Assembly (NCBI GenBank): GCA_023133275.1
Contig: JAGLWU010000015.1
Coordinates: forward strand, 1 to 37,192
DNA from: Candidatus Moraniibacteriota bacterium
GTDB lineage: Bacteria > Patescibacteriota > Minisyncoccia > Moranbacterales > GCA-2747515
Reading direction: 5' to 3'
DNA length: 37,192 nucleotides
The notes beneath the pieces were generated by a model. That model made no database searches and was not told where the DNA came from. It worked only from the letters and a program-made list of their open reading frames with translations. Below are positions 7,923 through 36,510 of the stretch, piece by piece. Both the position numbers and the translations under genes were made by a program. Position 1 is the first letter of the stretch, and each line of letters starts with the position of its first letter.

Positions 7923-7944
7923 AAAAAGCCAGTGCAGCGAGCAC
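7923..7944 (+). repeat. Dispersed hairpin motif copy 2 (AAAAAGCCAGTGCAGCGAGCAC)
   Basis: Same motif; stem extends to CAGTGC-AGCGA-GCACTG. Confidence 0.8.
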
Positions 7945-10093: not shown

Positions 10094-10115
10094 AAAAAGC
10101 CCGTGCGGCGAGCAC
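10094..10115 (+). repeat. Dispersed hairpin motif copy 3 (AAAAAGCCCGTGCGGCGAGCAC)
   Basis: Identical to copy 1. Confidence 0.85.
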
Positions 10116-12961: not shown

Positions 12962-12983
12962 AAAAAGCCTGTGCGGCGAGCAC
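12962..12983 (+). repeat. Dispersed hairpin motif copy 4 (AAAAAGCCTGTGCGGCGAGCAC)
   Basis: Same motif. Confidence 0.85.
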
Positions 12984-31998: not shown

Positions 31999-32030
31999 AT
32001 TTTAAAATTAAGTTTGAAGTTTTGTGATTT

Positions 32031-32249
32031 TCTTTGGGGGATTCTTCATTGCATAAATTTTTTTACAAAAAATTTATTACGTTCAGAATGACAGTAAACT
32101 GGGATGACGGAAAATTTAAATGATAGAAAATTGTAGGGGCAATGCCTTGTGCCTACCCATGTAATAAACTTTAAGTTTTACGATAGGGCGACCATAAGGG
32201 ATCGTCCCTACAGAATTCTTAAATTTTTAAAAGCCCGTGCGGCTAGCAC
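32031..32249 (+). repeat. Large dispersed palindromic repeat copy A (ends in hairpin motif copy 5)
   Basis: GGGGGATTCTTCATTGCATAAATTTTTTTACAAAAAATTTAT...TTCAGAATGACAG...TGTAGGGGC...; homologous to 36375-36510. Confidence 0.75.
32229..32249 (+). repeat. Dispersed hairpin motif copy 5 (AAAAGCCCGTGCGGCTAGCAC)
   Basis: Same motif with one loop change. Confidence 0.8.
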
Positions 32250-36374: not shown

Positions 36375-36510
36375 AGTTTCTGTGGGGGATTCTTCACTAC
36401 GCAATTTTTTTACAAAAAATTATTTTATTCAGAATGATAGGAAATTTGAATGACGAGAAAATTATAGGGGCTTGCTAGTAGTAAACCCAAAAAGCTCGTG
36501 CGGCGAGTAC
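36375..36510 (+). repeat. Large dispersed palindromic repeat copy B (ends in hairpin motif copy 6)
   Basis: GGGGGATTCTTCACTACGCAATTTTTTTACAAAAAATT...TTCAGAATGATAG...TATAGGGGC... Confidence 0.75.
36489..36510 (+). repeat. Dispersed hairpin motif copy 6 (AAAAAGCTCGTGCGGCGAGTAC)
   Basis: Same motif; stem change GCAC to GTAC keeps pairing as a wobble. Confidence 0.8.

Follow-up and report, generated by a model that had tools for sequence, protein, structure and literature searches.

The window, that is, the whole stretch of 37,192 nucleotides from a Candidatus Moraniibacteriota bacterium, contains two composite palindromic repeats, copy A and copy B, and further copies of their terminal hairpin. 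Copy A sits in an intergenic region. Three kinds of module were distinguished: a palindrome with an exchangeable core (E), a middle palindrome of several types, and the terminal hairpin (H, AAAAGCCCGTGCGGCGAGCAC), which is GC-rich and 21 letters long. The features of the window were as follows:

32016–32039, + strand: conserved 5' stretch of E, the spacer half of its inverted pair, GAAGTTTTGTGATTTTCTTTGGGG, common to many E copies genome-wide
32040–32093, + strand: module E of copy A, consisting of GATTCTTCATT, an 11-bp AT stem and CGTTCAGAATGACA
32133–32211, + strand: middle module P4 of copy A, GTAGGGGC...GTCCCTAC, a GTAG-footed palindrome pair of about 79 bases
32229–32249, + strand: H of copy A, AAAAGCCCGTGCGGCTAGCAC
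36388–36439, + strand: module E of copy B
36464–36488, + strand: middle module of copy B, a decayed P2 (GTAG-type)
36490–36510, + strand: H of copy B, AAAAGCTCGTGCGGCGAGTAC
1332–1352, + strand: H, without E or a recognised middle module
7924–7944, + strand: H variant AAAAGCCAGTGCAGCGAGCAC, without E or a recognised middle module
10095–10115, + strand: H, without E or a recognised middle module
12963–12983, + strand: H, without E or a recognised middle module

All the blocks named in the original prediction were present at their places, including the terminal hairpin motif, in both copies and at the four solitary sites, and the 11-bp stem ATAAATTTTTT-TAC-AAAAAATTTAT at 32053–32077, in which 32053–32063 pairs with 32067–32077 around the loop TAC. 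The conserved part of copy A, which had been taken to start at 32031, begins at about 32016, about 15 bases earlier. Among the blocks described as common to the two copies, the two ends and the GGGG foot are shared, whereas the middles are different modules. The TAGGGGC block of copy A, assigned to the shared unit, actually belongs to a separate GTAG...CTAC palindrome pair (32133–32211), and the GTAG foot of the middle module in copy B has now decayed to ATAG. Both copies retain only the right half of the full E pair. The block GGGGGATTCTTCAyTrC was exact at 32036 and 36384 (chance expectation in the window, 0.15 at up to 3 mismatches), and the H motif matched seven times in the window, once inside a tRNA gene, with 0.18 matches expected. 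Rfam at gathering score found only two tRNAs in the window, and no described RNA family for the repeat.

Further copies, on which the idea of a genomic repeat depended, were found throughout the draft genome of about 1.03 Mb. Copy A gave 91 BLAST pieces and is one among dozens of dispersed, mostly intergenic repeat chains. At up to two mismatches, H had 127 copies (57 forward and 70 reverse), compared with 0 for the reversed control. The genome has about 30% GC and is a draft of 74 contigs, from which chance or an assembly artefact of AT-rich sequence might be suspected. However, such an origin is hardly conceivable for a GC-rich 21-mer that is spread over many contigs, for the most part between ordinary genes, and it was refuted by the copy count against the reversed control. 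The H and E counts given below were read in 699 kb of stretches around the copies, with simple ORF calls. In these stretches H at up to four mismatches had 134 copies, 128 of which were outside called ORFs.

The order of the chain was fixed as E, middle palindrome and H, with H always the last module. Wherever E and H lay within 400 bases of each other (39 pairs), E was the upstream module; it was never downstream. Directly before H (n = 134) stood P1 (ACAAGGGGTCATGACCCCTTGT) in 28 cases, P2/P3 (GTAGGGG...) in 28, M (AATTTCGAAAAATGTTAAATGGTG) in 14 and P4 in 3, and no middle module was recognised at the remaining 61. A P4-type module directly precedes H at the loci L008, L029 and C13:33.7 kb. 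The middle modules were interchangeable and mostly of the GTAG "double-foot" REP type; the GTAG foot was present at the hairpin base in P2, P3 and P4 (GTAGGGGTTTGCCACTGGCAAACCC and relatives). Moreover, the modules were dispersed separately from each other. In some chains (C35:5758, C50:6957, C13:46932, C32 and others), the palindromes ATTCCGG...CCGGAATGACA and ATCCTGA...TCAGGATGACA were seen upstream of E. The chain may be longer than E, middle module and H, because these palindromes with other feet precede E.

Copy A is, in our judgement, probably a BIME-like mosaic of REP-like palindromes, intergenic and arranged in the order E, middle palindrome, H. A single MITE, with E as the left end and H as the right end and with one unlinked transposase, would agree with the invariant order of E and H, and the full E pair does have inverted ends (TGTCATTCTGAACG...CGTTCAGAATGACA). 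However, H often occurred without E or a recognised middle module, E was also found without H, the middle modules were interchangeable and the ends varied, and middle-type palindromes are found both inside and beside a transposase gene of their own, so that a single MITE is very unlikely. The non-autonomous palindromic element of the original prediction holds in being dispersed, modular, palindromic and probably non-autonomous, with a 3' hairpin that also stands alone. It is not a single element with fixed ends at the predicted coordinates, since both its 5' end and its middle module are freely variable and the modules come from different REP families. Like BIMEs, these are mosaic intergenic REP chains in a genome encoding RAYT-like transposases. 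Unlike BIMEs, they combine several unrelated families in a fixed order and end in a private, strand-biased hairpin.

The full E is an inverted pair, TGTCATTCTGAACG, core and GTGAAGAATCTCGATAAGTTTTTCTGATACTTTAGTAATTTCAAAGTTTTATGATTTTCTGTGGGG followed by GATTCTTCAC, core and CGTTCAGAATGACA, with TGTC feet outside, and 49 strict E copies were counted in the 699 kb. The cores were differing AT-rich hairpins, such as ATAAATTTTTT-TAC-AAAAAATTTAT, ATAAATTTATC-TGC-GATAAATTTAT and GTAATTTTGTC-TAAC-GACAAAATTAC. Nearly all of them were perfectly self-complementary, with a mean stem score of 10.2 versus 4.3 (sd 0.15) in shuffles. Furthermore, GATTCTTC-core-CAGAATGACA with other, on inspection mostly palindromic, cores occurred in 63 of 380 genomes of the phylum, while reversed controls gave 0 matches. 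This indicates that constant feet around an exchangeable palindrome are a pattern wider than one genome.

Read on the minus strand, E of copy A is a TGTC-footed REP-like palindrome, and TGTCATTCTGAACG shows TGTC followed by AT at the stem start. E resembles the CGTC (TGTC) REPs (PMC3733652) in that its other strand starts with TGTC-ATTC and ends in an unpaired C-rich tail, and in that it forms head-to-head pairs with the feet outside. No dedicated transposase was found for E, and CGTC-type REPs have likewise been reported without one (PMC3733652). The geometry of these REPs (stem of 8–9 bp, loop of 4–5 bases) was not found in E, whose outer stem has 5 bp with mismatches and whose loop is replaced by a second hairpin, an exchangeable palindrome of about 25 bases. 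A literature text search for short E sequence strings and peptides gave no match.

Three genes matched NF047646, the model for REP-associated tyrosine transposases (RAYT), at 49.6, 61.4 and 69.9 bits (E between 4e-13 and 2e-19). None of the three reached the cut-off of 80 bits; the in-frame palindromes add unmatched sequence. The C9 protein also weakly matched a TnpA_REP whose structure is known (4er8, E 0.06). The C9 and C73 proteins showed readable HUH (PNHIHG / PNHMHG), WQ and YIxxNP-like stretches; that of C12 was shorter, with YIIYNF as its Y stretch. Each of the three genes carried a GTAG palindrome in frame shortly after the HUH motif. In addition, P2 flanked the C9 gene on either side and also lay inside it, a near-identical palindrome stood upstream of the C73 gene, and a different one upstream of the C12 gene. 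Thus, the position expected of a GTAG REP, flanking or within a RAYT gene, was found for P2 at the C9 gene, but not for P4, the module of copy A.

In-frame REPs between the HuH and Y motifs, plus double-foot REPs, have already been described for TnpA_REP subclass 2.4 (PMC6006769). The RAYT-like genes here are similar in having in-frame GTAG palindromes between the HUH and Y motifs, and P2/P3 and the in-gene palindromes, with GTAG at one or both hairpin feet, resemble the GTAG REPs of RAYT subclass 2.4 (PMC6006769; PMC3733652). Unlike in that system, the dispersed palindromes here form chains ending in H, in a Patescibacteria genome; a literature search found no paper pairing Patescibacteria with repetitive extragenic palindromes. 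The RAYT-like genes carry or adjoin GTAG palindromes, and the middle GTAG modules therefore have a plausible mobilising enzyme. The transposase with matching ends that had been predicted is to this extent plausible for the GTAG palindromes, whereas a search of Y1 transposases found none with E or H at its ends or physically linked to E or H. IS200/IS605-like transposases are not known to make a target-site duplication.

The in-frame palindromes, GTAG-type or related, lay 31–106 bases past HUH (L047, 1724–1752; L048, 1673–1701; L049, 1688–1716). The same trait was observed in the family relatives L132, L133, L135 (L138 is the same gene) and L136. In several of these genes (L048, L049 and L132), the in-frame palindrome type also flanks the gene.

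For the BIME-like mosaic, we propose that the modules would spread or rearrange at the replication fork, by way of hairpins of single-stranded DNA. The host's RAYT-like (HUH tyrosine) transposases would mobilise the GTAG modules and, in trans, possibly E and H as well. We postulate no essential role in the host; insertions that disrupt a gene, promoter or operon would be lost through selection.

The hairpin of H is GTGC-GGCGA-GCAC, with a stem of just 4 bp. Because its foot is AAAAGCCC, and a GTAG or CGTC foot is absent, its putative kinship to REPs is one of shape and behaviour only: H has the high copy number, the mostly intergenic position and the short palindrome of REPs. H was found in 0 of 16 other genomes of the family and in no viral contigs. 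Exact H gave only three isolated matches in 84,980 species, a scan from which records of near relatives may be missing; they fell in unrelated phyla and were taken as chance matches. The block order was expected to be kept in related genomes, but the rest of the family lacks H and so does not share it. Among the substitutions in H, C-to-T exceeded G-to-A by about 1.9:1. An argument for the stem from compensatory changes was dropped, as the C-to-T excess was explained by strand skew and two-sided changes occurred in two cells only.

The orientation of H was compared with both gene direction and GC skew, the latter being only a proxy for replication direction in this draft of 74 contigs. In tandem intervals, H ran along the genes in 73 cases and against them in 10. 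Skew and gene effects were separated, because most genes here run with the leading strand. H ran with the skew in convergent and divergent intervals at 24:9 on whole-contig skew and at 23:10 on local skew, and where tandem genes ran against the skew, H followed the skew in 6 cases and the gene in 3. The logistic model (n = 116) gave a likelihood ratio of 22.1 for skew beyond genes and 12.1 for genes beyond skew. Solo H followed the skew in 37 of 44 cases, and single E copies did so in 24 of 24 cases when linked to H and in 5 of 5 without H. Accordingly, if GC skew is taken as the guide, H is oriented with the leading strand, and gene direction exerts an additional, independent pull. A cause in transcription only was rejected, because both replication strand and genes contribute, the skew more; since gene direction acts independently of the skew, selection or transcription accounts for part of the bias. 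The lagging-strand template is where IS200/IS605 elements insert (PMC6006769). The strand bias of H fits single-stranded DNA insertion or copying, though it is not proof of it.

H, alone or with its chain, might instead be a host transcription element, a terminator or an insulator before the next promoter. The antisense strand, GCTCG-CCGCA-CGGGC-TTTT, has a weak terminator shape, and the antisense consensus folds at −6.0 kcal/mol. H lies a median of 84 bases before the next same-strand gene start, the preference along tandem genes noted above would suit such a role, and an A-run before H and a T-rich stretch after it are conserved. However, a lax terminator scan flagged 0 of 134 H copies in sense and 15 of 134 in antisense, and H occupied divergent intervals (27%) not significantly less often than tandem (38%) and convergent (41%) ones (p = 0.14). 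Moreover, canonical terminators were not clearly rarer in intervals with H, the orientation of H tracks the replication strand where genes do not, and H was missing from all sampled family relatives. On the scan and the interval occupancy, H as mainly a terminator was mostly rejected, and we regard a host transcription element as unlikely. The antisense terminator shape may explain why H insertions against genes are rarer.

Returning to the BIME-like mosaic, a more far-reaching version is possible, though rather doubtful. H would be a third, hitherto undescribed kind of tagged, REP-like mobile hairpin of single-stranded DNA, private to the lineage and inserted strand-specifically at the fork by an HUH enzyme, and E would belong to a widespread class whose constant TGTC feet accept arbitrary palindromic cores. 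If true, the TGTC-foot class implies that there is some process by which the hairpins between fixed feet are exchanged. The REP/BIME kind is already known; new here are the TGTC palindromes with exchangeable cores and the private, strand-biased terminal hairpin. REP-like elements are common, yet their manner of spread is unsettled. A genome of about 1 Mb with about 130 strand-biased private hairpins, TGTC palindromes and RAYT-like genes offers a compact test case for fork-coupled spread of single-stranded DNA, and it is a heavy load of intergenic repeats for a genome this small.

Two minor observations concern the surroundings of H. Genome-wide, T was found at positions 9–11 after H in about 70% of the copies, though the bases directly after H vary. 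Furthermore, a common upstream variant, TGTATCATAGCYCGTGCGGCGAG, replaces AAAAGCCC at H on C2 (26748), C6 (4763), C9 (6355), C28 (17771) and C49 (8623).
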